Source: Parahoeflea halophila
GTDB lineage: Bacteria; Pseudomonadota; Alphaproteobacteria; Rhizobiales; Rhizobiaceae
Length of the DNA: 64,000 nucleotides
NCBI RefSeq assembly: GCF_900220985.1
Contig: NZ_OCPC01000001.1
Coordinates: 412,836 to 476,835 of the forward strand
Reading direction: 5' to 3'
Positions within the stretch are counted from its first letter, which is position 1, and each line of letters starts with the position of its first letter. Under the pieces are notes generated by a model. It was not told the origin of the DNA, ran no database searches, and worked only from the letters and a program-made list of their open reading frames with translations. The translations under genes and the position numbers were made by a program. Positions 3,079 through 41,859 of the stretch are shown piece after piece.

Positions 3079-3328
3079 GGATTGCTCCGGAAAAACGCAA
3101 GACTACGAGCAGGAATCGCACATAACAGTAAAGGAAGGCTGATGCCGCGCGTTAACGCCTGAGGCAATATTGCGGCAAACCCCGGCACGATCTGCAGCCG
3201 CAGCTCCGTGTCGGCAACAGTGAGGTGACGACCTGGCCGGCCAAAAGCAATCCCCGACATTCTCCTCCGAGCACTCTTCAAAACCTTCCGGCGGCGGGTT
3301 AAACCAAAGCATCAACGAGGAGACGCGC

Positions 3329-23392: not shown

Positions 23393-23395
23393 GGT

Positions 23396-23881: not shown

Positions 23882-24639
23882 GTTTCCCCCCCGGACAATG
23901 AAATTGCCTGGCCCGTCACCGACGCCGCGGCATCGCTGCAGAGCCACAGCACGGTTTCGGCTATCTCCTCAGGCTGGATGAAGCGGCCCTGCGGGTTCAC
24001 CTTCTTCAGCGAAGCTTCGGCCTCCTCGCGGGAGCGTCCGGTTTTCTCGACAATGTTGTCAATGGATCGATGCAGCATCGGCGTCTCGGTGAAACCCGGA
24101 CAGATTGCATTGACGGTCACACCGGTTTTCGCCAGCTCCTGCGCCAAACTGCGCACCAGACCGACAACTCCGTGCTTGGCTGCGCAATAGGCCCCGACAT
24201 AAGCATAACCTTTCAGTCCGGCGGTCGAGGCCACAGCAATCAACCGGCCGGGTTGATTCCGGTTCATTTTCACAAAGGCCGACTGGAAAGTGTTGAAAAC
24301 ACCAGTCAAATTCACATCAAGCGTGGAACGGAACAAGGCCGCATCGGTGCGATCGAACGGCGCACTTTCGGCCGATCCGGCATTGGCGATGACGATGGTC
24401 GGGGCGCCGTTTTTCTCCACCGCCTCGTCGATGGCCTTTGCCATCGCCTCCTCGTCTGTCACGTCTGCAGAGATAGCGATGATTCTGTCGTCCTGCTCGC
24501 CCAGTGCTTCAAGTGGTGCCAGACGCCGTCCGATCGCGGTCACCCGCGCACCCTTGTCCGCGAGCGCCAGGGCGATGGCTTCACCCGCTCCCGAGCCCGC
24601 GCCGGTGACAATGGCATGATGCCCCAAAAATTCCGACAT
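23878..24639 (-). CDS. Short-chain dehydrogenase/reductase
   Basis: The 253-residue Rossmann-fold oxidoreductase carries the cofactor loop AIVTGAGSGAGEAIALALADKG near residue 10, a following acidic-free IGRR that suggests NADP(H), VIANAGSAESAP, and the catalytic Ser-Tyr-Lys set with YCAAK near residue 155. The C-terminal LCSDAAASVTGQAISLSGG is typical. It lies two bases after the monooxygenase gene stop and overlaps the MarR start. A hydroxyacyl-CoA or ring-ketone dehydrogenase step in anthranilate breakdown is the likely role (inference). Confidence 0.92.
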   Translation of the reverse strand: MSEFLGHHAIVTGAGSGAGEAIALALADKGARVTAIGRRLAPLEALGEQDDRIIAISADVTDEEAMAKAIDEAVEKNGAPTIVIANAGSAESAPFDRTDAALFRSTLDVNLTGVFNTFQSAFVKMNRNQPGRLIAVASTAGLKGYAYVGAYCAAKHGVVGLVRSLAQELAKTGVTVNAICPGFTETPMLHRSIDNIVEKTGRSREEAEASLKKVNPQGRFIQPEEIAETVLWLCSDAAASVTGQAISLSGGET

Positions 24640-27098: not shown

Positions 27099-28253
27099 CT
27101 ACCTGGAGCGGCTGTCCCTGAGGGCAACCACCAGCCGGTCGACGCCCTCCCGGCTTGTCATGAAGCCTGGTGAGCAGCGCAGGATTGGACCCCGCGCATC
27201 GGCAAAAACCGAAGCCGCCCGCAACCGGCTCAGAAGCGCCTGCGCCTCATCGCCGTCACCAAGCCGTACCATCACGCTTCCGCCCCGATGAGCGGGATCA
27301 CGTGGCGATGCCAGTTCGTGGCCCGCATCATCGGCAGCTGAGATGATAACGTCGCACAACTCACGATTTTTGTTCAGTTGTACACCCCAGTCCTGTTCGG
27401 CATGCCATTCCAGTGCCGGCACCGAAGCGACGCAGGCCATCACCGACGGCGTGCCATTGTCAAACCGGCGAATGTCAGGAGCATAGGAAAAAGCATTGAT
27501 ATCCCAGGAGAAAATGTTGTCCTGGCTGAACCAGCCTCTCAGGCTCGGCTGACAGCGGGCGATCATGTCCGGCATCACCTGAAGGATGCCGCCTCCGGGC
27601 GAACCACACATCCATTTCAGGCTGGTCGAGATTGCAAAATCCGCAGCCACCGCCATGCAGTCATACTCGATCAGTCCGGCGGCCTGCGTGATGTCCACGC
27701 CGATCACCGAGCCCTGTTTACGCCCGTGCGCCACAAGTGCTTCGAGATTGCAGCGATGCGACGACGTGGAGCTGACCCATGTCAAAAGGGCCAGACCGAC
27801 TTCCGGGCCCCAGGCCGCGACCACGTCCTCGTCTTCCACCCAGTTGGCACCCTCCCGCAGGGCGACCGTGCGCAGTTCGAACCCGTAGCGGCCGGCAAGA
27901 CCGGTGAGCAGGAAATGAAGGCTCGGGAAGCAGTCCCCCGCCACCAGCACCACCCTGCCCTCGAGATCTTCGCGCGGCAGCGCCATGATGATTGCCGCCA
28001 GCGCCGAGGTGACATTCTCTGTCGTCGTCAGCGACGCGCGCGGCGCCTTGAGCAGCTGGTTCCACAAATCGATGAACCGCTGTCGCTGACCCAGCGCATA
28101 GCCCCATTGCTCGTCATCGGGCGCTCCCCAGCAATCGGCAAATGCCGTCAGCGAGGCCGCCATCTCCTTGGCCTTGCCGGGGTATTGCCCGATCGAGTGG
28201 TAGAGCATGTAGCCGGAGCCGTCATTGGCGGATGTGTTCGGTGTGTTTGGCAC
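27099..28253 (-). CDS. Kynureninase-like class V PLP-dependent enzyme
   Basis: The 384-residue protein has the class V aminotransferase fold: RASLTTTENVTSALAAII for the phosphate contact, SVIGVDITQAAGLIEYDC with the cofactor Asp, and the Schiff-base lysine in STSLKWMCGSPGGGILQV near residue 213, analogous to YKYLNGGPG in kynureninase. Late segments FDNGTPSVMACVAS and [19 protein letters not shown] mirror kynureninase (compare [15 protein letters not shown] in the operon's KynU). It follows the peptide-class ABC genes after 65 bases. It could cleave a kynurenine analogue or act as a lyase or desulfurase; the substrate is unknown. Confidence 0.75.
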   Translation of the reverse strand: MPNTPNTSANDGSGYMLYHSIGQYPGKAKEMAASLTAFADCWGAPDDEQWGYALGQRQRFIDLWNQLLKAPRASLTTTENVTSALAAIIMALPREDLEGRVVLVAGDCFPSLHFLLTGLAGRYGFELRTVALREGANWVEDEDVVAAWGPEVGLALLTWVSSTSSHRCNLEALVAHGRKQGSVIGVDITQAAGLIEYDCMAVAADFAISTSLKWMCGSPGGGILQVMPDMIARCQPSLRGWFSQDNIFSWDINAFSYAPDIRRFDNGTPSVMACVASVPALEWHAEQDWGVQLNKNRELCDVIISAADDAGHELASPRDPAHRGGSVMVRLGDGDEAQALLSRLRAASVFADARGPILRCSPGFMTSREGVDRLVVALRDSRSR

Positions 28254-28318: not shown

Positions 28319-29158
28319 TCACCAGCCGCTCTGCTGCGGGTCAGGCAGTGGAATGGCATCCAGCAATTCGCGTGTATAGGCGGCCTTCGGCGCTGCAAAG
28401 ACCCCCTCGGCATCGCCATACTCGACGACATCGCCCCGCTGAAGCACCATCACCGTGTCACACAGACGCCGGATCACCGACAGATCATGACTGATGAAAG
28501 CAAGCGTCAGACCGAGTTCCTCGACCAGTTCCGCCAGCACGTTGAGCACTTGCGCCTGCGAGGAAACGTCAAGCCCCGAGACGATTTCGTCGGCCAGAAT
28601 GAACTCAGGCTTCAGCGCGATGGCCCTTGCAATGCCCACCCGCTGGCGCTGTCCGCCCGACAGCTCATGCGGGTAGCGGCTGCGGAAACTGCGCGGCAGA
28701 CCGACATGGTCGAGCGCCTCATCGACGCGCGTGCTGATATGGTCAAAGCCATGCATCTGCATCGGATCGGCAATGATCGCACCGACCCGGCGGCGCGGAT
28801 TGAGCGAAGACATCGGGTCCTGGAAGATCATCTGCATCCGTCGCCGGATCGGCCGCAGCGCATCCTCGTTGAGATCGGTGATATCCCGGCCGTCAAACAG
28901 GATGGTTCCGGCTGTCGGTTCGACCAGCCGAAGCAATGCGCGGCCCAATGTCGACTTGCCCGACCCCGAGCCGCCGACAATGCCGAGCACCGAACCGCGA
29001 GTGATCTCGAGATCGATGCCGTTGAGAATGCGCACCATCGGCGCACGGCCAAAGACCGGCTTCGCCGCCATGTCCGGAAAGGCGACTTCCAGCCCACTGG
29101 CCGAAAACAGCACATCACGCTCCGTGTCCAGCTGTTCCGCTACGGTTTCATGCGCCAT
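28319..29158 (-). CDS. Peptide-class ABC transporter ATPase (DppF/OppF type)
   Basis: This 279-residue ATPase has Walker A GGSGSGKSTLGRALLRL near residue 57, Q-loop FQDPMSSLNPRRRVG, signature LSGGQRQRVGIARAIAL and Walker B FILADEIVSGLDVSSQAQ. The switch His lies in SHDLSVI. The C-terminal oligopeptide-family extension (EGVFAAPKAAYTRELLDAIPLP) assigns it to the peptide/nickel class. The ATG at 29158 overlaps the end of the upstream ATPase gene. It pairs with that DppD-type subunit. Confidence 0.93.
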   Translation of the reverse strand: MAHETVAEQLDTERDVLFSASGLEVAFPDMAAKPVFGRAPMVRILNGIDLEITRGSVLGIVGGSGSGKSTLGRALLRLVEPTAGTILFDGRDITDLNEDALRPIRRRMQMIFQDPMSSLNPRRRVGAIIADPMQMHGFDHISTRVDEALDHVGLPRSFRSRYPHELSGGQRQRVGIARAIALKPEFILADEIVSGLDVSSQAQVLNVLAELVEELGLTLAFISHDLSVIRRLCDTVMVLQRGDVVEYGDAEGVFAAPKAAYTRELLDAIPLPDPQQSGW

Positions 29159-30026
29159 GACGCCACTCCTTGTCCGCAGCCAGAACCTCGGCTGCAACGG
29201 CTTCAATCACGGCGTCATCCACCGGCAGCAGCGATGCATCCGGGTCGGTGTATTTCGGCGTCGCCGCCAGCAGTGCCCGCGAATAGGCATGCCTCGGCCC
29301 CTTGAAGAAGTCAGGCACGCGGGAATTCTCGATGATCTTGCCGCCGTAAAGCACCGAGAGCCGCTGGCAGACTTTCGACACTACGCCGAGATCGTGGGTA
29401 ACGAACACCATCGCCGTCGCGTGCCGCGCCTGCAGCTCCCGGATCAGCCGCAGGATCTGCTTTTGCACGGTGACATCGAGCGCCGTCGTCGGCTCGTCGG
29501 CGATCACCAGCTTAGGGTTGGCGGCAAATGCCGAGGCGATCAGCACCCGCTGGCGCATGCCACCGGACAGTTCATGCGGATAGCTGCCCATCACCCGTTC
29601 GGGACTGTCGATATGAACCTCGTTGAGCAGCTCCATCGCCCGCACCCGCGCATCCGACTTGCTCCAGCCGAGAATGTCGACCAGCCGGTTGGTGATCTGA
29701 GGCTCTATCCGCCGCGACGGGTTAAGCGCGGTCAGCGGATCCTGCGGAATCAGCGCCGCGGTGGCGCCAACCAGCCGCCGCCGGTCGGCGGGCCTCATTT
29801 TTTGCAGGTCCTCGCCGTTAAGCAGGATCTCGCCTTCGATGATCGAAATCGCCGAGGGCAGTATGCCCAGAATGGCCTTGCCGATCATGCTCTTGCCCGC
29901 ACCGCTCTCGCCCACCAGCCCCAGCACCTCGCCGGTATCGATCGAGAATGACACCGATCTGAGCACCCGCTGGTCGAAGCCGTGCAGAACCGCCGACAAA
30001 CTGTTGACAGTCAGGAACGCGCTCAT
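29148..30026 (-). CDS. Peptide-class ABC transporter ATPase (DppD/OppD type)
   Basis: The 292-residue ATPase has Walker [16 protein letters not shown] near residue 37, where Met replaces the usual Thr/Ser+Thr second residue. The rest is Q-loop IPQDPLTALNPSRRI, signature LSGGMRQRVLIASAFA, Walker [17 protein letters not shown], switch THDLGVV and the family C-terminal GPRHAYSRALLAATP. Its ATG at 30026 overlaps the permease stop (ATGA). It is part of a five-gene importer operon starting at the binding protein at 33469. Confidence 0.93.
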   Translation of the reverse strand: MSAFLTVNSLSAVLHGFDQRVLRSVSFSIDTGEVLGLVGESGAGKSMIGKAILGILPSAISIIEGEILLNGEDLQKMRPADRRRLVGATAALIPQDPLTALNPSRRIEPQITNRLVDILGWSKSDARVRAMELLNEVHIDSPERVMGSYPHELSGGMRQRVLIASAFAANPKLVIADEPTTALDVTVQKQILRLIRELQARHATAMVFVTHDLGVVSKVCQRLSVLYGGKIIENSRVPDFFKGPRHAYSRALLAATPKYTDPDASLLPVDDAVIEAVAAEVLAADKEWRHGA

Positions 30027-30874
30027 CGCAGCACCGGATCGAAGCGGTCCTTGAGACCTTCGCCAAACTGGCTGAAGGACAGGACGGTCAGAAACAGAAC
30101 ACCGAGCGGGAACGCCAGCACCCACCAGGCCTGGTGGATCGAGGTGCGGCCTTCGGCAATCATGCCGCCCCAGGTCGGCGCGTCGGTGGAGATCGAGAGG
30201 TTGACGAAGGACAGGATCGCCTCGACGATCACGGCGATGCCCATTTCCAGCGTCAGCAGCGCAACGATCGTCGGCAGCACGTTGGGCAGGATCTCCCGCC
30301 ACAGAATATCGCGCCGCGGGCGGCCTGCGACAACCGCGCTTGCGACATAGTCCATCGCCGACTGGTTCATGGCTTCCGCCCGCACCACGCGGCAGAACCG
30401 GGTCCAGTCGATCACGATGATGGCAATGATGATCGAGGTCAGCCCGGTACCGAGCACGGCGATCAGCAGGATGGCAAACAGCACCGGCGGAAACGCCATC
30501 CAGATGTCGACCAGCCGCGAGATCACGATGTCGACCCAGCCGCGCATGTAACCGGCCAGCAGGCCGAGCAGGGATCCGACAAGGGCGGTCGCCAGCCCCG
30601 CCACCAGCGCCACCGAAAACGCGATCTGGGCGCCGTGGAACAACCGCGACAGCACGTCCCGGCCAAGGCTGTCTGTCCCCAGCACGTAAGCCGGATCCGA
30701 CCCGCTCATCCAGAACGGCGGCAGCCGTCCGGCAAACAGGTCCTGCGCCAGCGGATCATGCGGGCTGACCATCGGTGCGAACAGCGCCAGCGCCGCCATG
30801 ATGCCGAGCCAGATGCCCGACAGCCAGAGCCGGGCGCCGAGCCGGCGATTGATTGAACCGCGGCCATCAAGCAT
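30023..30874 (-). CDS. Peptide-class ABC transporter permease (DppC type)
   Basis: This ~283-residue inner-membrane permease has six predicted helices and the DppC pattern: FAPMVSPHDPLAQDL, YVLGTDSLGRDVLSRLFHGAQIAFSV near residue 60, GLLAGYMRGWVD, DWTRFCRVVRAEAMNQSAMDYVASAVV (ATPase-contact loop) and the late LSFVNLSISTDAPTWGGMI. I prefer the ATG at 30874 (overlapping the DppB-type stop) to an earlier one at 30901 inside the neighbouring gene. Confidence 0.92.
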   Translation of the reverse strand: MLDGRGSINRRLGARLWLSGIWLGIMAALALFAPMVSPHDPLAQDLFAGRLPPFWMSGSDPAYVLGTDSLGRDVLSRLFHGAQIAFSVALVAGLATALVGSLLGLLAGYMRGWVDIVISRLVDIWMAFPPVLFAILLIAVLGTGLTSIIIAIIVIDWTRFCRVVRAEAMNQSAMDYVASAVVAGRPRRDILWREILPNVLPTIVALLTLEMGIAVIVEAILSFVNLSISTDAPTWGGMIAEGRTSIHQAWWVLAFPLGVLFLTVLSFSQFGEGLKDRFDPVLR

Positions 30875-31877
30875 GACGCAACCTCGGATTAAGCAGCGCA
30901 TAGGTCATGTCGACAACCAGATTGATGATGGTGAAGAGCAGCGCGAAGACGATCACGATGCCCTGGATCAGCGGCAGGTCGCGGTTGATCACTGCATCAA
31001 TTGCCATGTTGCCGAGCCCTTCATAGGAAAACAGCCGTTCGATGATCACTGTGCCGCCAATCAGGAACGTGAACTGGACACCGATAAGCGTCAGCGTCGG
31101 CAACACCGCATTGGGAAGCGCCTCCGACAGGATCACATGGTTCTCGCTGTAACCCATGGTGCGTGACAGCGTGACATAATCGAGGTGCATGGTCTCCTTC
31201 AGCGACTGCTTGAGCAACTGGCTGATGATCGCCGCCAGCGGGATCGCCAACGCTAAGGCCGGCATGAACATGTGCTTGAGCAAATCCCACCATAGATCGA
31301 AGCGCAGCCGGAACAGGCTCTCGAAAACGTAGAACTGGGTCACGAACGGCAGCTCCAGCGAGGGCGAGATCCGGCCGGAAATATGGAAAATCGGCATCAG
31401 CACGCCGAACAGCACGATCAGGATCAGCGCCCAGAGAAAGTCCGGGATCGAGAGCCCCACCCCGTTGGCAACATCCACCGCGGTTTCTGTCCGGGTCTCG
31501 CGATGCCGCACGCCTGTCAGCGCCAGCGCGCCGCCGATCACAACGGCGATCACCAGCGCGAAGATCGCCAGTTCGAGGGTGGCCGGCAGCCGCCCGAGCA
31601 CCAGCGGCATCACCGGCTGGCGCAACGAGATCGAAGTACCGAAATCACCCTGGAAAACGCCGCTCAGCCAGATGCCGAATTGCTGGAATATGGTCTTGTC
31701 GAGACCGTAGTGCGCCGTCAGCCGCGCCACGTCCTCCTCCGAGGCGCCCGGCGGCAGCATCATGGCAATGGGGTTGCCCGGCACGACACGGATAACGAAA
31801 AACACCACCACCGCCGCCCCGATCAAGGTGACCGACATGGTCGCAAGGCGAACAAGGATTGCGCGCAACAATTTCAA
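30867..31877 (-). CDS. Peptide-class ABC transporter permease (DppB type)
   Basis: This ~336-residue permease has VFFVIRVVPGNPIAMMLPPGASEEDVARLTAHYGLDK and FGIWLSGVFQGDFGTSISLRQPV. The C-terminal LPNAVLPTLTLIGVQFTFLIGGTVIIERLFSYEGLGNMAIDAV is the DppB signature. A TTG at 31877 with AGGACAT upstream is my preferred start, because the family's Leu/Arg-rich first helix begins there; an ATG at 31910 is possible. It lies 60 bases after the binding-protein gene. Confidence 0.9.
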   Translation of the reverse strand: MKLLRAILVRLATMSVTLIGAAVVVFFVIRVVPGNPIAMMLPPGASEEDVARLTAHYGLDKTIFQQFGIWLSGVFQGDFGTSISLRQPVMPLVLGRLPATLELAIFALVIAVVIGGALALTGVRHRETRTETAVDVANGVGLSIPDFLWALILIVLFGVLMPIFHISGRISPSLELPFVTQFYVFESLFRLRFDLWWDLLKHMFMPALALAIPLAAIISQLLKQSLKETMHLDYVTLSRTMGYSENHVILSEALPNAVLPTLTLIGVQFTFLIGGTVIIERLFSYEGLGNMAIDAVINRDLPLIQGIVIVFALLFTIINLVVDMTYALLNPRLRHA

Positions 31878-31939
31878 GGTAAATGTCCTGCAAATGGGGC
31901 CGCCGCCCAATGGCAGCGGCCCATCTATGCGTTTGCGAT

Positions 31940-33469
31940 CTAAGCCCGCTTCATCAGATGCGGAAGCAGAGCGCCCGAAGCATGCGGCGTGACCACCACA
32001 CCATCGGCATGCAGGATCGGCTGCACATACTGCAGCAGCGGGATCACCAGGGCATTGTCGGCAATGTACTTGTCGACCGCCTTCCAGCCTTCGATACGCT
32101 TGTCCTCATCAGCCTCGCCCCAGAGCGGGCCGATCATGCCGGTCAGGTCTTCACCATCCCACACCGAGTGCGGCGACGGGCCGAACATGGCAAAACCGGT
32201 CGAGGTCGTCGGGTCGCCAACCGAGTTGCCCCAATTGTAGAACGCTGCCGGCGCAAGCTGGTCGGCCGCCCGCAATTCGTAGTGCTTGGCGATCTCGTAG
32301 ACTTCGATCTCGGCCTCGATGCCCACCTTGCGCCACAGACCGACGATCGCCTGAATGATCTCGTAATCCTTTGGCTTGAAGCCGCGCGTCGTCTGGATCT
32401 TGAACTTCACGGGGTTCTCCGGCGAAAAGCCCGATTCTGCCAACAGCTCCTTGGCCTTCTCGGGATCGTAGGGAACCTTGATGGAGTCGTCGAACGCGAT
32501 GTATTCCGGCGTCTGCAGCGTGTCGATGGCGACACCATAGCCCGACAGCAGACGATCGATGATCAGCTGCTTGTCAATCGACATGGCAGCCGCCATGCGT
32601 ACATTCGGGTCAAGCATCGCCTCGATGTCGTTGAGGAAGATCATGCCGATATCGGAAATCGGAGCATCGGTGCCGGCAATACCGTTGCCATCCTTGAGAC
32701 GGTCATATTCCTCATAGGGCATTTCCAGCGTGACATGGGCATTGCCCGATTCGATCTCGGCCACGCGCGACGCGGCATCAGTGACGAACTTGATGGTCAC
32801 GGTTTCAAAGTCGGGCTTGCCACCCCAGTAGTTGGGATTGGCCTTCAACCGCACGAACGCGTTACGCTCGAATTTCTCGACCATGTAGGGGCCGGTACCG
32901 ATCGGTGCAGCCTCGAAACCTTCCGGTCCGACCTTTTCATAATAGTCCTTCGGCAGCACGTATCCCGTCAGGAAGTACATCCACTTGAAGATGGTTGGCT
33001 CGAAGCGCGCAACATCGGCGGTTACCGTGTTGCCTTCCGCCTTGATGTTGGTCAGCGTCGACCAGATGAACTGGATCGGGTTGCCGGTGTTCTCGTCGGC
33101 TGCGCGGGTAAGTGACCAGGCGACGTCTTCGGCTGTAAATGGTGAGCCGTCATGCCAGGTTACGCCTTCGCGCACCGTAAGCATGATCTTGGTCTTGTCC
33201 TCGTTCCAGCCCCAATCGGTTACCAGTCCCGGTGCGGGTGAAAGGTCGGACTTCTGCAGGATGAACTGGTCGAACACCGACTGGTAAATCCCCTGGATGG
33301 TCGGGTTGACCGCCGACGGGCCGACGGTCGGGTCCCAGGATGGCAGGTTCACATTGTAAGCGATGACAAGTTCGTCGATGCCCTGGGCGAGGGATGGTCC
33401 GGCAAAGGCGGTAATCGCCACTGCCGCGGCCGTGCCCTTGAGCACCGTGCGACGCGAAATCTGTTTCAT
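31940..33469 (-). CDS. Tat-exported SBP family 5 substrate-binding protein
   Basis: The 509-residue precursor begins with a twin-arginine signal (SRRTVLKGTAAAVAITAFAGPSLAQG). Family 5 features follow: ILTVREGVTWHDGSPFTAEDVAWSL near residue 95, a GTGPYMVEKFERNAFVRLKANPNYWGG segment near residue 180, and a C-terminal lid region. Such proteins bind peptides, opines, nickel or small organic compounds. The gene follows the flavoprotein at 33497 after 27 bases and precedes its permeases and ATPases. The nearby indole-type enzymes suggest an aromatic or peptide-like ligand (inference). Confidence 0.92.
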   Translation of the reverse strand: MKQISRRTVLKGTAAAVAITAFAGPSLAQGIDELVIAYNVNLPSWDPTVGPSAVNPTIQGIYQSVFDQFILQKSDLSPAPGLVTDWGWNEDKTKIMLTVREGVTWHDGSPFTAEDVAWSLTRAADENTGNPIQFIWSTLTNIKAEGNTVTADVARFEPTIFKWMYFLTGYVLPKDYYEKVGPEGFEAAPIGTGPYMVEKFERNAFVRLKANPNYWGGKPDFETVTIKFVTDAASRVAEIESGNAHVTLEMPYEEYDRLKDGNGIAGTDAPISDIGMIFLNDIEAMLDPNVRMAAAMSIDKQLIIDRLLSGYGVAIDTLQTPEYIAFDDSIKVPYDPEKAKELLAESGFSPENPVKFKIQTTRGFKPKDYEIIQAIVGLWRKVGIEAEIEVYEIAKHYELRAADQLAPAAFYNWGNSVGDPTTSTGFAMFGPSPHSVWDGEDLTGMIGPLWGEADEDKRIEGWKAVDKYIADNALVIPLLQYVQPILHADGVVVTPHASGALLPHLMKRA

Positions 33470-33496: not shown

Positions 33497-35071
33497 TCAT
33501 TTCCCGCCCAATTTCTGCGCGAGCATATATCCTGCACCTGCTCCGGTGCCTGCCCCCGGCCAGACGCTCGCACCGGTCAGGTGCAATCGCTCGATTGGGG
33601 TCTTTCCCGTGGCGTGGCCGAAGGCCGGACGGAACAGGAAATTCTGCGAAAGGTGATGGCTGCCGGCAATCTGGTCACCGCCGACAAGGTTTGGATTGTC
33701 GGCCTGAAGATCGAGCGGAGAGACCACAGCCCGGCTGATGATCTTGCCTCTAAGCCCCGGCGCATGCGTCTCGATGATATCGAGCGCCCGCTCCGTATAG
33801 ATCTCCTTGACCTCGGCCCAGTCGGTTTGCGTGATCTTGCCAGCTGCATCGCCGCGGATCCTGGCCGGCACCATGCGCACCTGAACCCAGAGCACATGCT
33901 TGCCGTCTGGCGCCCGGCTCGGATCAATTGCGGTCGGCTGTCCCACCACCAGAACCGGTTCGTCCGGCAACATGCCTGCAACAGCCTGCTGGTAGGTCCG
34001 GGCCATCTGATCGAGCGACGGCGCGATATGAACATAAGCGAATGATCTCAGCTCGTCGCTTGCGCTCCAGTCCGGCAGCCCGTCAAGCGCCAGGTGAATC
34101 ATCATCGTGCCCGGCGCATGGACGAACTTCGTCATCTTCGCGTCGAAACCGCTATTGCCTGAGCCGCCTTCGAGCAGCTTCATCATTCCACGCGGCGCAA
34201 CATTGGCGATCACCGCCTTGGCTGCGCTCACTCTGGTTCCGTCTGCAAGCTCGATCCCGGTGGCCCTGGCACCTTCACGGATCACCCGCGACACCTTCCT
34301 GCCGCAATGGACTTCGCCGCCCGAGGCTTCGATCTGCGTCACGAGCGCCCGCGTCACCGTGTCGGCACCACCCTTGCCGATGACCATGCCGAAATTCTGG
34401 TTGGCCATCGCTTCCAGATAGGGAAACACCGCACCGCCACCCAGATCGGGCGCAAAATCGAGATGCATCCCCCACGCCGCGAGCGTGGCGCGAACATGGT
34501 CGGACTCGAAGGTTTCCGACAGGAAGCTGCGTGGCGAGGAAATCAGCAGCCGGACCAGCCCGGCAGTCCAGGCGACGCCTTTCTTGTACAGGGCCCTGGC
34601 CAGCAACTTCAAAAGTACATGCGTTTGCATGGGACTGCCCAAAAGCGCAAAGACATGTTCGGCCGTTTCGGGAAATTCCTTGCACAACCGGTCCCAGGCT
34701 CGCGCGTCGGCCTCGGAAAAGGCTGCAATCCGCGCCCGGGTCTCGCCATCTCCGGTGCTCACGCCAAGCCACTTGCCATCCTCAAAAACGCTGGCAAAAC
34801 AATGGCTAGCTGGCGCAAACTCAAGCCCGTTCGCACTCAGCGCCTCTCCATGCTGCTTGAAGAAACCCGATCCGGCAAACAGGCTCAGATTCATCGCCGC
34901 CCAGTCATGACGGAAGCCCGGCTCGGTCAGTTCCAGCGTCTTGACGGCGCCACCGGTCGCCTCCGCCTGCTCGAAAACGCCAACCCGCCAGCCCTTCGTG
35001 CCCAGCTGAACCGCACAAGCCAGACTGTTCACGCCGGAACCAACTATGACTGCATCATACCCGCTCTGCAC
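33497..35071 (-). CDS. Phytoene-desaturase-like (CrtI/PYROXD2-type) FAD oxidoreductase A
   Basis: The 524-residue flavoprotein opens with the dinucleotide-binding GYDAVIVGSGVNSLACAVQLGTKGWRVGVFEQAEATGGAVKT. It has a second substrate/FAD motif IGKGGADTVTRALVTQIEASGGEVHCGRKV near residue 215 and closes with LHLTGASVWPGAGTGAGAGYMLA. It is paralogous to the plus-strand protein at 36040 and stands divergent from it across the 35.1 kb promoter region. Relatives dehydrogenate or isomerise hydrophobic or alicyclic substrates. It starts at GTG 35071 and heads the minus-strand transporter operon. The reaction is unknown; dehydrogenation of an oxindole-type compound is a guess from context. Confidence 0.83.
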   Translation of the reverse strand: MQSGYDAVIVGSGVNSLACAVQLGTKGWRVGVFEQAEATGGAVKTLELTEPGFRHDWAAMNLSLFAGSGFFKQHGEALSANGLEFAPASHCFASVFEDGKWLGVSTGDGETRARIAAFSEADARAWDRLCKEFPETAEHVFALLGSPMQTHVLLKLLARALYKKGVAWTAGLVRLLISSPRSFLSETFESDHVRATLAAWGMHLDFAPDLGGGAVFPYLEAMANQNFGMVIGKGGADTVTRALVTQIEASGGEVHCGRKVSRVIREGARATGIELADGTRVSAAKAVIANVAPRGMMKLLEGGSGNSGFDAKMTKFVHAPGTMMIHLALDGLPDWSASDELRSFAYVHIAPSLDQMARTYQQAVAGMLPDEPVLVVGQPTAIDPSRAPDGKHVLWVQVRMVPARIRGDAAGKITQTDWAEVKEIYTERALDIIETHAPGLRGKIISRAVVSPLDLQADNPNLVGGDQIAGSHHLSQNFLFRPAFGHATGKTPIERLHLTGASVWPGAGTGAGAGYMLAQKLGGK

Positions 35072-35096: not shown

Positions 35097-35117
35097 ATAA
35101 TTGCAAATGCATATTAT
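35097..35117. promoter_or_regulatory. AT-rich dyad (TGCA-A/T-TGCA) in the divergent promoter region, candidate MarR operator
   Basis: ATAATTGCAAATGCATATTAT at 35097-35117 contains two TGCA half-sites in AT-rich flanks with approximate two-fold symmetry. It lies between the divergent genes starting at 35071 (minus) and 35221 (plus). AT-rich dyads of this size are the usual MarR targets, and a MarR gene lies in the plus operon. Confidence 0.45.
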
Positions 35118-35220: not shown

Positions 35221-36012
35221 ATGAACGCTGCAGAAACGCTCGGCAATCTTGCCGGTATGCTGATCGAGGGAAAAGTCGAGGTGGTCGACCTCTCCGGTCC
35301 GCTTGGGCCAGACACGCCACTGCTTCAGTTGCCCGAGGATTTCGCCAAGAATACGCCCAAGATCGAAATTCACAAGATCTCCGAATATGACAGTGACGGT
35401 CCGTTCTTTGCCTGGAACTGGCTCAAGCTCGGCGAGCATTCCGGCACCCATTTCGACGCGCCGCATCACTGGATCACCGGCAAGGACTATGCCGATGGCT
35501 ACACCGATTCCATTCCGCCACAGAACTTTGTCGCACCGGTCAATGTGATCGACTGCTCCGCCGAAGTCGCTGAAAACCCCGACTTCCTGCTCGATGCAGC
35601 CCGCGTCAAGCAATGGGAAGCCGAGCACGGCGAAATCAAGGCCGGCGAATGGGTGGTGATGCGGTCCGACTGGGATTCCCGCGCCGGTGACGAAGCCGCC
35701 TTCCTCAACGCCGATGAAACCGGCCCGCACTCGCCCGGACCGACGGTTGATTGCATCCAGTACATTCTGTCCAAGGGTGTGGTTGGCTGGGGCAACCAGT
35801 GCATTGGCACCGATGCGGGTCAGGCCGGCGGCATGGAACCTCCCTACCCGGCGCACAATCTGCTGCACGCGGCCAACAAATATGGTCTCGCCTCGCTTGC
35901 CAATCTCGACAAGCTGCCGCCCAAGGGCGCGATCCTGATCGCGGCACCGCTCAAGATCGTCAAGGGAACGGGCAGCCCGATCCGCGCCATGGCACTGGTC
36001 GCACGCGGCTAA
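35221..36012 (+). CDS. Cyclase-family metal hydrolase, isatin hydrolase-like
   Basis: The 263-residue cytoplasmic protein has the metal motif HSGTHFDAPHHW, with ligands likely His73, His77 and Asp79 and with His82/83 nearby. It also has QCIGTDAGQAGGMEPPYPAHNLLH near residue 195 and IHKISEYDSDGPFFAWNW. From memory the whole sequence closely resembles the manganese-dependent isatin hydrolase of Labrenzia aggregata, which opens isatin to isatinate; kynurenine formamidase (KynB) belongs to the same superfamily but is shorter (about 210 residues). The gene heads the plus-strand operon with FAD oxidoreductase B, MarR and the IorAB-type enzyme. A formamidase role is the main alternative. Confidence 0.82.
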   Translation: MNAAETLGNLAGMLIEGKVEVVDLSGPLGPDTPLLQLPEDFAKNTPKIEIHKISEYDSDGPFFAWNWLKLGEHSGTHFDAPHHWITGKDYADGYTDSIPPQNFVAPVNVIDCSAEVAENPDFLLDAARVKQWEAEHGEIKAGEWVVMRSDWDSRAGDEAAFLNADETGPHSPGPTVDCIQYILSKGVVGWGNQCIGTDAGQAGGMEPPYPAHNLLHAANKYGLASLANLDKLPPKGAILIAAPLKIVKGTGSPIRAMALVARG

Positions 36013-36039
36013 AGCGCGCCAACGCCGGAGACCGGGACC

Positions 36040-37617
36040 ATGGCAGATTACGACCACATCATCGTTGGCAGCGGGATCAATTCGCTCGTTGCCGCGGCCA
36101 TGCTTTCCAAAAATGGCAAGCGTGTGCTGGTGCTCGAGCGCGAAGACCGCCTCGGCGGCTGCATGCGCACCGAGGAAATCACCCTGCCCGGTTTCCACCA
36201 CGACGTCATGGCAGCCACCTTTGTGCTGTTTCTGACCTCTCCAGTCCATGACGCGCTCGGAGCCGATCTGGCGCGGCATGGGCTGGAATTCTGCCACACC
36301 CAGCACCCGACTGCGGTTCTCAGGCCCGACGGCTCGTCGCTGGTGCTGACCACAGACCGTGCCACCAACGTCAGGACGTTCAATGCAGTCTCTGCCGGTG
36401 ATGGTGACCGCCACAAGAAAGCCGTCGAAACAGTCGAAGCCGATGCGCCATTCCTGTTCGCGCTGCTCGGCGGTGAACTCTGGAGCTGGTCCACCGCCAG
36501 GCTGATGATCGGCCAGGCCTGGAAACGCGGCCTGCGCGGCCTCGCAGCCTGGATGGGGGAAGCCTTGCGGCCGATCCGCGCCTGGCTTGAAAGCTCCTAC
36601 AATTCGCAGCTGGTTCAGGCGCTCTGGGCGCCCTGGGCGCTGCACACCGGCCTGACCACGGAATCCGCCTATGGCAGCCAGATGGGCAAGGTCATCGCCT
36701 TTGCGCTGGAGGCTGCTGGTGCGCCTGTCGTCAAGGGCGGCGCCGGCCAGGCCGTTGCCGCCTTCAAGGGCCTGATCGAGGCCAATGGCGGCGAGTTGCG
36801 CACGGGCGCCGACGTTGACCAGATTATTCTGCGCGACGGCAAAACCGCCGGCGTCAGGCTCGCCGATGGCAACGAGATCACCGCGTCACACGTCATCTGC
36901 TCGGTGGCGCCGGGACAGCTCTACAACCGGCTGCTGCGCGGCGAGACCGGGAAACTCCCCGAAGAGGTGACCTCCGGCCTTAGTCAATTCCGCCATGGCC
37001 GCGGCAATTTCCAGCTGCACTACGCCATCGACGGCCCGATCCGCTGGAAGACCAAGGGGCTGGAGGATGTCGCTCTCATTCACCTGGCAGAGAGCGTCGA
37101 TTCCGTCTCGAAATCCTCCAACGAGGCCGAGCGCGGCATGTTGCCGGCAACACCGACCATCTGTGTCGGCCAGCCGCACCGGCTAGACCCATCCCGCTGC
37201 CCGGATGGCAAGTCCATCCTCTGGCTGCAGATCCCCGATGCCCCACGTACCGTCAAAGGCGACGCTGTTGGCAAGATTGAAACCGGCGGCGTCTGGAACG
37301 AAGCCACGCGTGAGGCCTTTGCCGACCGCATCGAGGCGATCCTTGCCAATCACATCGAAGGATTTGCCGACAGCGTTCTGGCCCGCAAGGCCTACTCGCC
37401 GGTGGATCTGGAAACCATGAATATCAATCTCGTCGGCGGCGATCCCTATGGCGGGTCCTGCGCCCTGGACCAGTTCTTCATCTGGCGTCCATTCGCCCAC
37501 AGCAAGAACAACGCGACAGCGATCGAAAACCTGCATCACATCGGCGCCTCCACCCACCCCGGACCGGGTCTTGGCGGCGGATCCGGTCTGTTGCTGGCAA
37601 AAAGGTTGAGCGGATGA
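36040..37617 (+). CDS. Phytoene-desaturase-like (CrtI/PYROXD2-type) FAD oxidoreductase B
   Basis: The 525-residue flavoprotein starts with YDHIIVGSGINSLVAAAMLSKNGKRVLVLEREDRLGGCMRT and has APVVKGGAGQAVAAFKGLIEANGGELRTGADV near residue 230. It ends in HHIGASTHPGPGLGGGSGLLLAKRL, the C-terminal FAD contact of the CrtI/PYROXD2 group. It is a paralogue of the protein at 33497, with one copy in each divergent arm, so they may act on successive intermediates or as partners. It lies 27 bases after the hydrolase gene and overlaps the MarR gene by four bases. Confidence 0.83.
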   Translation: MADYDHIIVGSGINSLVAAAMLSKNGKRVLVLEREDRLGGCMRTEEITLPGFHHDVMAATFVLFLTSPVHDALGADLARHGLEFCHTQHPTAVLRPDGSSLVLTTDRATNVRTFNAVSAGDGDRHKKAVETVEADAPFLFALLGGELWSWSTARLMIGQAWKRGLRGLAAWMGEALRPIRAWLESSYNSQLVQALWAPWALHTGLTTESAYGSQMGKVIAFALEAAGAPVVKGGAGQAVAAFKGLIEANGGELRTGADVDQIILRDGKTAGVRLADGNEITASHVICSVAPGQLYNRLLRGETGKLPEEVTSGLSQFRHGRGNFQLHYAIDGPIRWKTKGLEDVALIHLAESVDSVSKSSNEAERGMLPATPTICVGQPHRLDPSRCPDGKSILWLQIPDAPRTVKGDAVGKIETGGVWNEATREAFADRIEAILANHIEGFADSVLARKAYSPVDLETMNINLVGGDPYGGSCALDQFFIWRPFAHSKNNATAIENLHHIGASTHPGPGLGGGSGLLLAKRLSG

Positions 37618-38105
37618 ACGACACCAGGAAGCCTGAAACCGAAAAGCCCGAGCCCCTGCCGCGGCTTGGCGAAATCGGCCTGTCGAATTACGCCCCCTAT
37701 CTGATGAACCGCATCATGGGCCGCTACAATGCGGACCTGAGGCAGGAAATGACGGAGCTTGGGTTGACCACACCCAAGATGCGCGCGCTTGCCGTGCTTT
37801 CGGTTATCGATGCGCTGCCGATCAGTGAACTGGCGGTCTATGCCGTGGTCGAGCAATCGACGCTCAGCCGTGCTCTCGACCAGCTTGCTTCCGACAACAT
37901 GGTCAGGCGCGACGCCGATCCGAACGACAGCCGCGTGACCCGCATCGGCATTACCGATGCAGGCCGCGCGACCCTTGATCGGCTCTGGCCCACCATGGCC
38001 CGGAGCTACGCCCAGATGTTCAAAGGCATCCCCGAAGAGGAGCGCCAGGCATTCGTGACCACGCTGCAAAAGGTGCTCAAGAACATCCGCAAGCACGATT
38101 TTTAA
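37614..38105 (+). CDS. MarR family transcriptional regulator (second)
   Basis: This 163-residue winged-helix regulator has MGRYNADLRQEMTELGLTTPKMRALAVLSVIDALPISELAVYAVVEQSTLSRALDQLASDNMVRRDADPNDSRVTRIGIT. The recognition helix includes QSTLSRALDQL and the wing RRDADPNDSR. It is translationally coupled to FAD oxidoreductase B (ATGA overlap) and followed after 18 bases by the IorA-type gene. It is the likely regulator of the divergent promoter at 35.1 kb. MarR proteins control several auxin- and indole-degradation loci, which fits the neighbours (inference). Confidence 0.93.
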   Translation: MNDTRKPETEKPEPLPRLGEIGLSNYAPYLMNRIMGRYNADLRQEMTELGLTTPKMRALAVLSVIDALPISELAVYAVVEQSTLSRALDQLASDNMVRRDADPNDSRVTRIGITDAGRATLDRLWPTMARSYAQMFKGIPEEERQAFVTTLQKVLKNIRKHDF

Positions 38106-38123
38106 GGACGGGAATCACAGATC

Positions 38124-40271
38124 ATGGCTGAACGCTCATTCGCCAAGGAAGTCCAGAAACTGAAGATCGGGGAAGGTGAAACCTTTTCCGGCGAGGGCAT
38201 TCTGGCGCTGACGAAGGCACTGCTGGAAGCCGGTGTCGGCTATGTCGGCGGCTACCAGGGCGCACCGATCAGCCATCTTATGGACGTCCTCGCCGATGCC
38301 GAGGAGATCCTCACCGAGCTCGGTGTACGCTACGAGGCCAATGCCTCCGAAGCAGCCGCCGCGGCCATGCTGGCGGCCTCCGTGCATTACCCGATCCGCG
38401 GCGCCGTCACCTTCAAGGGACCGGTTGGCGTCAATGTCGCCTCCGACGCGCTCGCCAATCTGTCCTCATCCGGCGTAACAGGAGGCGCGCTGGTCATCAT
38501 CGGTGAGGATTACGGCGAAGGTTCCTCGATCATGCAGGAACGCAGCCACGCTTTTGCGATGAAATCGCAGATGTGGCTGCTCGATCCGCGGCCCAACCTG
38601 CCCTCGATTGTCAAGTCGGTACATCAAGGCTTTGAGCTGTCAGAAGCCTCAAACACCCCGGTCATGCTGATGGTGCGGATCCGCTCGTGCCATGTGACCG
38701 GCAGCTTTGAGGCCAGGGACAACAAGCGCCCGCCCTTTACGGTGAAGGATGCGCTGGCCACGCCGCGCAGCGACTACGCCCGCGTCGTGCTGCCGCCGAT
38801 GTCCTATCTGCAGGAACACGACAAGATCAACAACCGCTGGCCGGCCGCGCAGAAACACATCGTCGAGAACAAGCTCAACGAAATGTTCGGCCCCAAGGAG
38901 GCACCAGTCGGCATCGTGCTGCAGGGCGGCATGTACAACGGCGTGATCCGTGCGCTGCAGCGCCTCGGACTGGCTGACATCCACGGCGAGACCGATGTCC
39001 CGCTCTATGTGCTCAACGTCACCTACCCGCTGGTCAATGACGAGTTCTTCGAATTCTGCGAAGGCAAGTCGGCGGTTCTGGTGGTCGAGGAAGGCCAGCC
39101 CGAATTCATCGAACAGGCGCTCGGCGCCGCACTTTACAAATCCGGCCGCAACATCAGCCTGCATGGCAAGGACATGCTGCCGATGGCGGGCGAATACACC
39201 GGTCAGGTCATGCTCGACGGCCTGGAAGCCTTCCTCCGCAAGGCGGCCCCCGAGATGCTGCCGGCCCGCCTGCGCGCGCCCAATTCGGAAGAGAAGCCGG
39301 CGCTGCCAGACCTCTCCAAGACGGTGCCGATCCGCCCGCCCGGTTTCTGCACTGGCTGTCCCGAACGACCGATCTTTGCCGCCATCAAGCTGACCGAGCA
39401 GGAATTCGGCAAACACCAGATCGCCGGCGACATCGGCTGCCACCTGTTTGCCACCCTGCCGCCCTTCGAGATCGGCGGCTCGACCATGGGATACGGTCTC
39501 GGTCCGGCCTCAAACGCGGCCTTTGACGGCGGCGGCGAGAAACGCTCGATTTCCATTCTCGGCGACGGCGGCTTCTGGCACAACGGGCTGTCCTCATCGA
39601 TCGGCAACGCGGTCTACAACAAGTCCGACGGCGTCATCGTCGTGGTGGACAATTTCTACTCCGCCGCCACCGGGGGGCAGGACGTGCTCTCGTCGCGCGC
39701 CGACAATCCGACCAAGGCGACGGGCCATCCGATCGCCGACGCGGTCAAGGGTGTCGGCGTCAAGTGGGTGCGCCAGCTTGACCGCACCTATGACGTGCCC
39801 AAGATGCGCGAGATCCTGAAAGAGGCGCTGACCACCGACCATGTCGGACCAAAAGTCATCGTCGCCTCCTCGGAATGCATGCTCAACAAGCAGCGCCGCG
39901 AAAAACCGCTGATGAACAAGGCGATCAAGGAAGGCCGCCGGGTTGAAAAGCCGCGCTTCGGCGTCGACGAGGACATCTGCACCGGCGACCACGCCTGTAT
40001 CCGCCTGTCCGGATGCCCGTCGCTGTCGCTGAAGAAGCTCGACGATCCACTGCGCGACGATCCCGTTGCCAGCATCGATCAGAGCTGCGTCGGCTGCGGC
40101 AATTGTGGCGAAGTGGCCGACGCCGCCGTGCTGTGCCCGTCCTTCTTCCGCGCTGAAGTCGTGCACAATCCGGGCTGGCTCGAACGCAAGCTCGGCAACC
40201 TGAGAAGCAAGACCATCGCGTGGCTTCAAGATCGCCGCTCCAGCACCCGCATCGAATTCGCCCGGACCTGA
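38124..40271 (+). CDS. Indolepyruvate oxidoreductase (IorA)-family alpha subunit with ferredoxin domain
   Basis: The 715-residue subunit of a 2-oxoacid:acceptor oxidoreductase decarboxylates an aryl 2-oxoacid to the acyl-CoA using TPP. The N-terminal pyrimidine-binding domain spans about 25-200 (VGYVGGYQGAPISHLMD). The TPP-binding stretch is near 478 (LGDGGFWHNGLSSSIGNAVYNKSD, then DNFYSAATGGQD). A C-terminal 2x[4Fe-4S] region at ~615-675 has an altered first motif (C-x5-C-x5-CP) and a normal CxxCxxC second one. It is paired with the beta subunit five bases downstream. Phenylpyruvate or indolepyruvate is the usual substrate; beside isatin hydrolase, isatinate is an attractive one (inference). 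Confidence 0.9.
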   Translation: MAERSFAKEVQKLKIGEGETFSGEGILALTKALLEAGVGYVGGYQGAPISHLMDVLADAEEILTELGVRYEANASEAAAAAMLAASVHYPIRGAVTFKGPVGVNVASDALANLSSSGVTGGALVIIGEDYGEGSSIMQERSHAFAMKSQMWLLDPRPNLPSIVKSVHQGFELSEASNTPVMLMVRIRSCHVTGSFEARDNKRPPFTVKDALATPRSDYARVVLPPMSYLQEHDKINNRWPAAQKHIVENKLNEMFGPKEAPVGIVLQGGMYNGVIRALQRLGLADIHGETDVPLYVLNVTYPLVNDEFFEFCEGKSAVLVVEEGQPEFIEQALGAALYKSGRNISLHGKDMLPMAGEYTGQVMLDGLEAFLRKAAPEMLPARLRAPNSEEKPALPDLSKTVPIRPPGFCTGCPERPIFAAIKLTEQEFGKHQIAGDIGCHLFATLPPFEIGGSTMGYGLGPASNAAFDGGGEKRSISILGDGGFWHNGLSSSIGNAVYNKSDGVIVVVDNFYSAATGGQDVLSSRADNPTKATGHPIADAVKGVGVKWVRQLDRTYDVPKMREILKEALTTDHVGPKVIVASSECMLNKQRREKPLMNKAIKEGRRVEKPRFGVDEDICTGDHACIRLSGCPSLSLKKLDDPLRDDPVASIDQSCVGCGNCGEVADAAVLCPSFFRAEVVHNPGWLERKLGNLRSKTIAWLQDRRSSTRIEFART

Positions 40272-40275
40272 TCGC

Positions 40276-41859
40276 ATGGCAACCACCACACTCTCCGAAC
40301 TGAAGCCCAGGCAGCCGGACCTTGCGCTGGACCAGATCATCAAGGTCGCAATCATGGCCGTCGGCGGCCAGGGTGGCGGCGTGCTGACCAACTGGGTCGA
40401 GGACTGCGCCCACCGCAACGGCTATGTCGTTCAGGCCACCTCCGTGGCCGGCGTCGCCCAGCGGACCGGTGCAACGATCTATTACATGGAAATGGCGCCT
40501 GCCAGCGATCGCAAGCCGGTCTTCTCGCTGATGCCGGCTGCTGGTGACGTCGACATTCTGGTGGCAGCCGAAATGATGGAAGCCGGACGCGCCATCATGC
40601 GCGGCTTCGTCACCCCGGACCGCACCACACTGATCGCCTCGTCGCACCGTGCGCTAGCCGTCTCCGAGAAGATGGTGCCCGGAGATGGCATCGCCGATTC
40701 CGAGGAAGTGATTGCGGCTGCGGAAATCGCCGCCCAGCGATTCATCGCTTTCGACATGGAGAAGATGGCAGTCGATGCCGGATCAATGATCTCGGCCAGC
40801 CTGTTCGGCGCGCTGGCCGGCTCCGGCGCCTTGCCGTTCGAGCGCGAAAGTTTCGAAGCCGCGATCAAGGCCTCCGGCCGTGGTGTTGAAGCCAGCCTGC
40901 GCGCTTTTGCGGCCGGATTCGAAGCTGCGGCCGGAGGCTTGGTTGAGCGTCCACAGTGGGGACAGACGAAATCCGATACGGCCAACGCGCCCAGGGGACC
41001 AAGCCACCTGGTCGAGAAATGGCAAGCGCTCGAGGCAAGGACAGAGGCCCTGCCCGACAACGTTCGCGACATGGCGCTGACGGGACTGCGCGCCGTCGTC
41101 GATTTTCAGGATCTCGACTATGGCGCCGAGTATCTCGACCGGCTTGACCAGGTTCTCGACCACGACGACCCCGGCAAGGACTATGAGCTGACCCTGGAGG
41201 CCGCCAAATACATCGCCAAGGCGATGGCCTATGACGACGTGTTCCGTGTTGCCGACCTGAAGACCCGCGGCAGCCGCTTCGCCCGCGTCCGCAACGAGAT
41301 TTCGCCGGCTGAAGGCACGCAAATGAAACTCACCGAATTCATGCATCCGCGCGCCGAGGAGGTGGTCGGCATAATGCCGTCGAAGCTCGGCCGCCGGCTG
41401 TCTGCCAGTGAAAAATCAATGCGGCTGATCGACAGGCTGGTCAACAAGGGCCGCAGGCTGCGCACCGATCGGCTGCTTCCCTTCGCCCAGCTCTACATCC
41501 TCGGCGGGCTTCGCAAGTATCGCCGCGGAACCCTGCGCCATGCAATCGAGAAAGAACACATGGAACGCTGGCTGGAACAGGCGCTGAACTACCGCAAGCT
41601 CGATTATGCGCTCGGCGTCGAAGCCTTGCGCAACCGCCGCCTGGTCAAGGGCTACTCCGACACCCATGCCCGTGGCCTGTCGAAGTTCGACCGGGTCATG
41701 GAGGGCGTAGCGCTGCTTGCAGGCCGCGACGATGCGGCCCATTGGTGCAAACTGCTGCGCGAAGCAGCCCTCGCCGATGAAAAAGGCGACCAGCTCGAAG
41801 GCGCGCTCAAGACCGTCCGCTCCTTTGCAGGACAGCCCGAGACCGCGTTGCAGAACTGA
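40276..41859 (+). CDS. Indolepyruvate oxidoreductase (IorB)-family beta subunit, long form
   Basis: The 527-residue subunit has the 2-oxoacid oxidoreductase gamma-type domain at its N terminus (VAIMAVGGQGGGVLTNWVEDCAHRNGYVVQATSVAGVAQRTGAT), which contacts CoA and TPP. A C-terminal ~300-residue DUF6537-like helical extension follows (LEAAKYIAKAMAYDDVFRVADLKTR and later). This long form occurs in aerobic proteobacteria, where the enzyme can work without strict anaerobiosis. It is the last gene of the plus-strand operon; about 150 non-coding bases follow before the PACE gene. Confidence 0.9.
   Translation: MATTTLSELKPRQPDLALDQIIKVAIMAVGGQGGGVLTNWVEDCAHRNGYVVQATSVAGVAQRTGATIYYMEMAPASDRKPVFSLMPAAGDVDILVAAEMMEAGRAIMRGFVTPDRTTLIASSHRALAVSEKMVPGDGIADSEEVIAAAEIAAQRFIAFDMEKMAVDAGSMISASLFGALAGSGALPFERESFEAAIKASGRGVEASLRAFAAGFEAAAGGLVERPQWGQTKSDTANAPRGPSHLVEKWQALEARTEALPDNVRDMALTGLRAVVDFQDLDYGAEYLDRLDQVLDHDDPGKDYELTLEAAKYIAKAMAYDDVFRVADLKTRGSRFARVRNEISPAEGTQMKLTEFMHPRAEEVVGIMPSKLGRRLSASEKSMRLIDRLVNKGRRLRTDRLLPFAQLYILGGLRKYRRGTLRHAIEKEHMERWLEQALNYRKLDYALGVEALRNRRLVKGYSDTHARGLSKFDRVMEGVALLAGRDDAAHWCKLLREAALADEKGDQLEGALKTVRSFAGQPETALQN

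Follow-up and report, generated by a model that had tools for sequence, protein, structure and literature searches.

Which compound does the 2-oxoacid oxidoreductase encoded beside an isatin hydrolase in Parahoeflea halophila act on? The question arises in a 64,000-nucleotide stretch of its genome (NCBI RefSeq assembly GCF_900220985.1, contig NZ_OCPC01000001.1, positions 412,836 to 476,835; hereafter the window), where a densely packed plus-strand operon of five genes (35221-41859) encodes a hydrolase, a CrtI-like flavoprotein, a MarR regulator and the subunits IorA and IorB of an indolepyruvate-oxidoreductase-family enzyme. The initial annotation had named these parts, and we found all of them in place, with domain matches that agreed. 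We propose that IorAB probably turns isatinate and CoA into 2-aminobenzoyl-CoA. The hydrolase would open isatin to isatinate (2-aminophenylglyoxylate), which the thiamine-dependent IorAB, a member of the IadAB clade, would decarboxylate oxidatively with CoA to 2-aminobenzoyl-CoA and CO2; a flavoenzyme (24642-26936) and its beta-oxidation-type neighbours would then degrade the thioester. The hydrolase step is backed by close homology; the substrate and product of IorAB, the MarR site and the feeder reactions are ones that we infer from sequence.

The hydrolase gene (35221-36012, plus strand) encodes a protein of 263 residues that carries EHSGTHFDAPHH and matches the cyclase family PF04199 (7.4e-34). 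In a phmmer comparison with solved structures, we observed that its top match was the Labrenzia isatin hydrolase B (IHB; 4j0n_A, E 8.4e-143, 477.9 bits), and the next matches were other isatin hydrolases. Of the Labrenzia aggregata isatin hydrolases A and B (PDB 4j0n, 5nnb; PMC6117287), it is B to which the window enzyme aligns, without gaps, over residues 1-262. The two share the metal motif given for isatin hydrolases, HxG[T/A]HxDxPxH (PMC6117287), which is kept here as H73-S-G-T-H77-F-D79-A-P81-H-H83 and is invariant among 12 aligned homologues. They also share three of the four named pocket residues of isatin hydrolase B (Phe63, Trp65, Trp84 and Phe209; PMC6117287); they differ in that the window enzyme has Tyr for Phe209. 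For the Labrenzia enzymes, the available text covers neither what flanks the gene nor what becomes of isatinate. The closest named relative is from Hoeflea alexandrii (97% identical). The description of a cyclase-family hydrolase with an HSGTHFD metal motif was therefore correct, and its identification as an isatin hydrolase is upheld by the full-length match. That it opens isatin to isatinate is, on this homology, near certain.

We scanned genome contigs with the hydrolase alignment and kept the best 80 of at least 588 stretches, all of them closer to the B type. Sixty of the 80, each at least 18.5 kb, are referred to as long loci, with flanks of up to 10 kb; the locus maps rest on tblastn matches, and some open reading frames (ORFs) from the GC-position filter are antisense artefacts (L065, L086). 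IorA was found in the flanks of 56 of the 60 long loci, MarR in 56 and IorB in 55, and the hydrolase, IorA and IorB were on the same strand in 51. At 56/60, the grouping of IorA with the hydrolase is beyond chance. The same flanks held the CrtI-like flavoprotein B in 44 loci, its partner CrtI A in 42, the importer protein SBP5a in 40, the flavoenzyme in 16, the kynureninase-like KynU2 in 11, and an aryl-CoA ligase and iadD in one each. No CrtI gene was nearby in 14 of the 56 IorA-bearing long loci; in 13 of these 14, IorA shares the strand of the hydrolase match and starts 469-889 bp past it, and MarR is present in 13 of the 14. Since these 14 loci keep both the hydrolase and IorAB without a nearby CrtI gene, the two form the constant pair. 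In an uncultured Sedimentitalea (L124), a single strand carries the genes iadC through hydrolase A, followed by hydrolase B, MarR and IorAB; the ligase and lower-pathway genes adjoin this run.

The long loci also bear on a different identity for the hydrolase, that of the N-formylkynurenine formamidase (KynB) of the adjoining kynurenine pathway. The window does encode a tryptophan 2,3-dioxygenase and a kynureninase, KynU1 (17303-19335, KynU1 at 18145-19335, minus strand; PF03301, PF22580), and the formamidase and isatin hydrolase families have a common fold (PMC6117287). The arylformamidase model, though, gives the hydrolase 27.6 bits, which does not reach the cut-off of 223.05, while its match to isatin hydrolase B scores 477.9 bits, and neither tryptophan dioxygenase nor KynU1 was found near the hydrolase in any of the 60 long loci. 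We consider this identity highly improbable and have dropped it.

Both subunits of the oxidoreductase are encoded, as first annotated. IorA (38124-40271, plus strand) has a TPP-binding domain (PF02775, 1.2e-14), and IorB (40276-41859, plus strand) has a POR domain (PF01558, 4.3e-19) and DUF6537, and exceeds the cut-off of subfamily NF006179 (681 vs 348 bits). Seven cysteines at the IorA C terminus (residues 619-671) are invariant across 104 sequences; in what we take to be the pattern for two [4Fe-4S] clusters, one expected cysteine is Asp622 here (CTGDHAC). A tree of 65 IorA rows split 54 vs 11 with support 100/100, and the window IorA and the iad-linked rows fell together in the 54. The rows are homologues from sampled genomes, a set that excludes the published Variovorax and Bradyrhizobium IadA, and the context labels on them undercount (single best pieces were used, and loci L196 and above are short). 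The window genome has one IorA match at E <= 1e-60, the window's own, so that the window IorAB is the genome's only IadAB candidate.

The name of the family, indolepyruvate oxidoreductase, suggests another substrate. IorAB could be an arylpyruvate enzyme that acts ahead of auxin breakdown, oxidising indolepyruvate to indoleacetyl-CoA, and is merely co-regulated with the isatin hydrolase; isatinate would then become anthranilate through another enzyme and be activated by the ligase. We regard this as unlikely. The window IorA reaches 279.7 bits with the classical IOR alpha equivalog TIGR03336, short of its cut-off of 650.9, and the genome encodes two further DUF6537 proteins (fused, ~1150 residues), which leaves the window IorAB free for another substrate. 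The compact hydrolase-MarR-IorAB operon also stands mostly without auxin genes (iadD near 1/60). Furthermore, iorB/iadB and iotA/iadA are exclusive markers of iad-like operons and not of the iac type (PMC9613470), though a supply of indolepyruvate would suit both.

The occurrence of these genes across genomes points to isatinate as the substrate of IorAB. The next enzyme in the proposed route, the flavoenzyme (24642-26936, minus strand), is a two-domain aroyl-CoA monooxygenase/reductase (ACMR type), in which an FAD monooxygenase domain (PF01494) is fused to an OYE-type reductase domain (PF00724); it scores 1314 bits with NF006101 (cut-off 1078). This homology starts at residue 33 of a longer ORF, in agreement with the start that the initial annotation had chosen. 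Its substrate is presumably aminobenzoyl-CoA. In a sample of 199 genomes of the order (cut-offs: hydrolase E <= 1e-60, IorA and flavoenzyme E <= 1e-200, ligase E <= 1e-90), we found the isatin hydrolase in 22, IorA in 36 and the flavoenzyme in 60. IorA was present in 22/22 hydrolase genomes vs 14/177 others (7 of the 14 at >= 60% identity), and the flavoenzyme in 22/22 vs 38/177 others; the flavoenzyme was likewise present in 34/36 IorA genomes vs 26/163 others. In a second set, 39 isolate genomes taken from among those of the 80 hydrolase loci, all 39 had the flavoenzyme and all 39 the ligase. The union of both sets is 60 hydrolase genomes (one is shared, G517 = G069), and the flavoenzyme was found in 60/60.

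A sample of 398 genomes of the phylum (IorA cut-off E <= 1e-180) gave IorA in 27 genomes, with 29 copies. Among the 22 copies at >= 60% identity, half of which come from the window's own family, 16 have an isatin hydrolase within ~10 kb and 3 lie beside iadCDE (G171, G194, G112). The sister clade (<= 57% identity, 7 copies) had no hydrolase, iad genes or flavoenzyme nearby in any of the 6 copies examined. In G849, which belongs to another class, the gene order is MarR-IorA-IorB-iadCDEFG-hydrolase A, and in G846 IorA-IorB-hydrolase A lie beside genes for the flavoenzyme, a dehydrogenase and a hydratase; the 20 kb of this stretch gave no ligase match.

The position of the ligase adds to this evidence. 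In the window, the gene (19799-21421, minus strand; PF00501) encodes an aryl-CoA ligase that is probably for free anthranilate and scores slightly below the cut-off of the benzoate-CoA ligase model (361.7 vs 375.25 bits). A ligase lay <= 15 kb from the flavoenzyme in 9/22 hydrolase genomes vs 24/26 control genomes with the flavoenzyme and no IorA (p 1.6e-4, which, as with our other Fisher p-value, ignores kinship and is too small because the sampled genomes are related). It was also that close in 11/12 genomes with IorA and the flavoenzyme and no hydrolase. Ten hydrolase genomes have the ligase elsewhere: in 6 its neighbour is a tryptophan dioxygenase or kynureninase gene (G069, G136, G068, G050, G171, G181), and in 4 neither of these adjoins it (G010, G112, G070, G106). 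Thirteen hydrolase genomes have no ligase adjacent to the flavoenzyme; in 7 of them the hydrolase or IorAB is found <= 10 kb from that flavoenzyme (G069, G136, G105, G068, G050, G010, G112). Taken together, the minimal operon, the co-occurrence, the constant flavoenzyme and a ligase that is partly set apart favour, indirectly, the use of isatinate by IorAB to form 2-aminobenzoyl-CoA, the step that had been suggested from the window alone.

Several observations weigh against this reading, some of them against a strict bypass of the ligase. The ligase is present in 57/60 hydrolase genomes, which would suit the arylpyruvate alternative as well. It is missing in 3/22 (G105, 100% complete; G085, 99%; G183, 91% and fragmentary) vs 1/26 flavoenzyme genomes without IorA (G176, 75% complete), and this difference alone is not significant (p 0.32). 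In the window the ligase and the flavoenzyme adjoin; as they are neighbours, the window itself does not have the separation. G112 carries, between its hydrolase A and flavoenzyme genes, a further AMP-ligase gene (35% like iadF). IorA is lacking in 4 of the 60 long loci (L155, L173, L183, L189), and 3 of the 22 clade copies do not fit (G041; G795, on a 10.6-kb contig; G774). Seven genomes of the order have IorA (>= 60%) and no hydrolase at E <= 1e-60, and two of them, G024 and G047, are also without the flavoenzyme at E <= 1e-200. A sister-clade copy in the order sample (G020) adjoins genes that resemble the flavoenzyme (40%) and the ligase (33%). Lastly, iadC-K2 of Variovorax is enough to restore anthranilate though it lacks iadAB (PMC12633357), so that isatinate can become anthranilate without IorAB, as the arylpyruvate alternative would have it.

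We had considered the absence of the ligase as proof of the bypass, and this is weakened by the 39/39 isolates with a ligase, the p of 0.32 and the fragmentary state of G183. The initial annotation had IorAB bypass free anthranilate and an ATP-dependent ligase. This is plausible for one branch and does not hold for the whole cell, since the ligase is in 57/60 genomes and beside the window flavoenzyme. The ligase would handle free anthranilate, of which the kynurenine-pathway genes of the window are the probable source.

A further possibility is that IorAB does use isatinate, and that the thioester is hydrolysed at once, so that free anthranilate is the real product and the ligase re-activates it. 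In iad strains the pathway is indeed reported to end in anthranilate (PMC9613470, PMC12633357), and the ligase is common. A 4HBT-family thioesterase lies near the hydrolase in 7/80 loci, which is some support; it was seen in these 7 only, and the scanned genes of the window include none. G105 and G085 (>= 99% complete) moreover keep the flavoenzyme with no ligase at E <= 1e-90. We therefore think it improbable that the thioester is lost in this way, and retain 2-aminobenzoyl-CoA as the likely product that is passed on.

The copies of IorA without a hydrolase were informative on the range of the clade. In 2 of the 7 hydrolase-free genomes (G081, G047), where the isatin hydrolase is absent, a different PF04199 protein lies near IorAB (L066 15208-16299; L068 9350-10549), along with TRAP-transporter-like genes; in the remaining ones the stretches fetched held no hydrolase match. 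These other PF04199 proteins suggest that the IorA clade may serve related substrates too. In G774 (L238 851-11270), the order is IorA-IorB-flavoenzyme, and no hydrolase or ligase was seen in the stretch. Downstream are a gentisate/5-aminosalicylate-dioxygenase-like cupin, a fumarylacetoacetate-hydrolase-family protein, a nitrilase and a gene without an NCBIfam match; the substrate of this operon is perhaps another ortho-substituted arylglyoxylate. The sister-clade IorAB (L239-L244), 51-57% identical, has different neighbours. An octopine-dehydrogenase-family and 3-hydroxyacyl-CoA-dehydrogenase gene pair was seen near IorAB in two distant genomes (L072 3504-5566; L237 13512-15579).

Where would the isatin come from? 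The initial annotation had observed that no Rieske dioxygenase for indole-3-acetate is present here and took this as a hint that the entry compound could differ. The window indeed has no Ring_hydroxyl_A match, and no iadCDE lie beside the operon; the genome does have one such match, its sole one, at C2:668278 outside the window. This gene is inside an iad-type locus (C2:662080-671024; L034, L035), which begins 185 kb beyond the end of the window. As the same genome has this locus, the absence of a Rieske gene from the window is uninformative on the entry compound, and the hint is not borne out. The locus encodes a short-chain dehydrogenase/reductase (SDR), an A-type isatin hydrolase (50% identical to the B type of the window), an OB-fold/SDR protein, a thiolase, an AMP ligase, the Rieske small and large subunits, a reductase and a MarR, and IorAB is not there. 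All of these genes but those of the hydrolase and the Rieske large subunit were named from their translations and the gene list of PMC12633357. Indole-3-acetate degraded through this locus would thus be one supply of isatin.

An Achromobacter study reportedly named iadA to iadR. The iad locus of Variovorax, Achromobacter and Bradyrhizobium (PMC9613470, PMC12633357) is MarR-controlled, as is the window operon by our proposal. The window IorAB is in the same clade as that of G849, and this genome's iad-type locus holds a second isatin hydrolase. The arrangement differs in that IorAB is 185 kb from the iad genes and is accompanied by its own isatin hydrolase, an importer, the CrtI-like pair and KynU2. 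Isatin, isatinic acid and anthranilate have been reported for iad-like operons (PMC9613470), and in Bradyrhizobium japonicum under indole-3-acetate iorA is up 30.7-fold and iorB 7.6-fold (PMC3788728; these proteins were not aligned with the window IorAB). C7H7NO and C8H7NO3 build up strongly only in strains overexpressing iadC-K2; the authors treat them as intermediates to anthranilate, and the available text does not mention iadA or iadB (PMC12633357). Such accumulation would fit a build-up of isatinate when IadAB is missing. No reaction for IadA or IadB is stated in the available text of PMC9613470 and PMC12633357. The conversion of isatinate to 2-aminobenzoyl-CoA was not found in the literature searched, where subscription journals are thinly covered, and it is not given in the accessible parts of PMC11630574, PMC8383072, PMC6221969 and PMC12538310.

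The lower-pathway genes next to the flavoenzyme (21423-24639, minus strand) encode an acyl-CoA dehydrogenase, an enoyl-CoA hydratase, a MarR and an SDR. Aerobically, 2-aminobenzoyl-CoA is made by a ligase and attacked by a monooxygenase/reductase. The chemistry proposed for IorAB, arylglyoxylate to aroyl-CoA, is that of phenylglyoxylate oxidoreductase; this enzyme and the iaa pathway of Aromatoleum are anaerobic, with other genes and subunits. The iaa pathway (named in PMC9613470) leads to the same 2-aminobenzoyl-CoA. With its flavoenzyme, ligase and beta-oxidation-type genes, the window resembles the aerobic pathway (named in PMC6221969), and differs from it in the second, ligase-free entry via isatinate that we propose.

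The operon is probably regulated by its own MarR (37614-38105, plus strand; PF01047, 7.2e-11). A predicted operator/promoter element, ATTGCAAATGCATA, has an exact match at 35100-35113 (plus strand), in the stretch between the operon and the divergent gene for CrtI-like flavoprotein A (33497-35071, minus strand). In 62/78 loci the 260 bp ahead of the hydrolase contain the core of this element (<= 1 mismatch), against 0.018 expected, an expectation taken from the same loci as a whole; many of them are close kin. The core was present in 48/57 loci with CrtI B and in 14/21 without. A scan of the operator region of the window gave no inverted repeats. We infer that MarR binds this conserved element between the divergent genes and would control the operon through it.

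A second supply of isatin is probable, from a further indolic compound that the importer, the CrtI-like pair and KynU2 would handle. The Opp-type importer (28319-33469, minus strand) comprises, by domain matches, two ATPases, two permeases and the solute-binding protein SBP5a. The two CrtI-like flavoproteins, A and the operon-encoded B (36040-37617, plus strand; PF01593, 1.6e-17), are 35% identical. A predicted model of flavoprotein B (pLDDT, the predicted local distance difference test, 88.6) had as its nearest fold a carotenoid desaturase, and after it came amine and nicotine oxidases; with identities of <= 19% throughout, these matches point to no substrate. Carotenoid synthesis was rejected as a role for the pair, as NCBIfam carotenoid models stayed below their cut-offs (for one protein, among the best 25 of 32 matches); no search was made for other carotenoid genes. 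KynU2 (27099-28253, minus strand) is a kynureninase-like pyridoxal-phosphate enzyme (PF00266, PF22580; 1qz9 kynureninase, 5.6e-17). Compared with its paralogue KynU1, it retains the lysine and has the active-site motifs replaced by DITQ and LKWMCGSPGG; the roles of these motif residues are as we assume them from kynureninase. KynU2 was found in 14/80 hydrolase loci, next to the hydrolase in 6 (2 divergent, 4 directly upstream), and 7 of the 14 have no CrtI gene nearby.

The CrtI-like pair and KynU2 look like feeders to the isatin module. Kynureninase cleaves dihydrokynurenine by a retro-aldol cleavage, and we propose by analogy that KynU2 could split dioxindolyl-alanine to isatin and alanine. 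In its fullest form, the window would be a pathway for oxidised tryptophan: the importer would take up oxindolyl- or dioxindolyl-alanine or peptides, the CrtI-like pair would oxidise C3 of the indole, KynU2 would yield isatin and alanine, and the IHB-IorAB core, the same as the auxin IadAB, would make 2-aminobenzoyl-CoA. We put this whole scheme forward as speculative and rather unlikely as it stands. The literature search gave no title on the bacterial breakdown of dioxindolylalanine. Elsewhere among the 80 hydrolase loci, luciferase-like monooxygenase genes were seen in 11, flavin reductase in 5 and the 4HBT thioesterase in 7 (L136, L141, L154 at 2553-3086, L158-L161, L163, L166, L172, L188); they may be other feeder or outlet enzymes. 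Downstream of IorB on the same strand, a gene of the chlorhexidine efflux transporter family (PF05232; 42010-42456) might export a toxic intermediate.

If IorAB acts on isatinate as proposed, a reaction would be assigned to iadA and iadB, the exclusive markers of the iad type. It would provide an ATP-sparing entry to aminobenzoyl-CoA metabolism, and the joint occurrence of the isatin hydrolase, this IorAB clade and the aroyl-CoA flavoenzyme would be explained. Isatin is a breakdown product of auxin, and the isatin module is common to many relatives of this Hoeflea-like bacterium.

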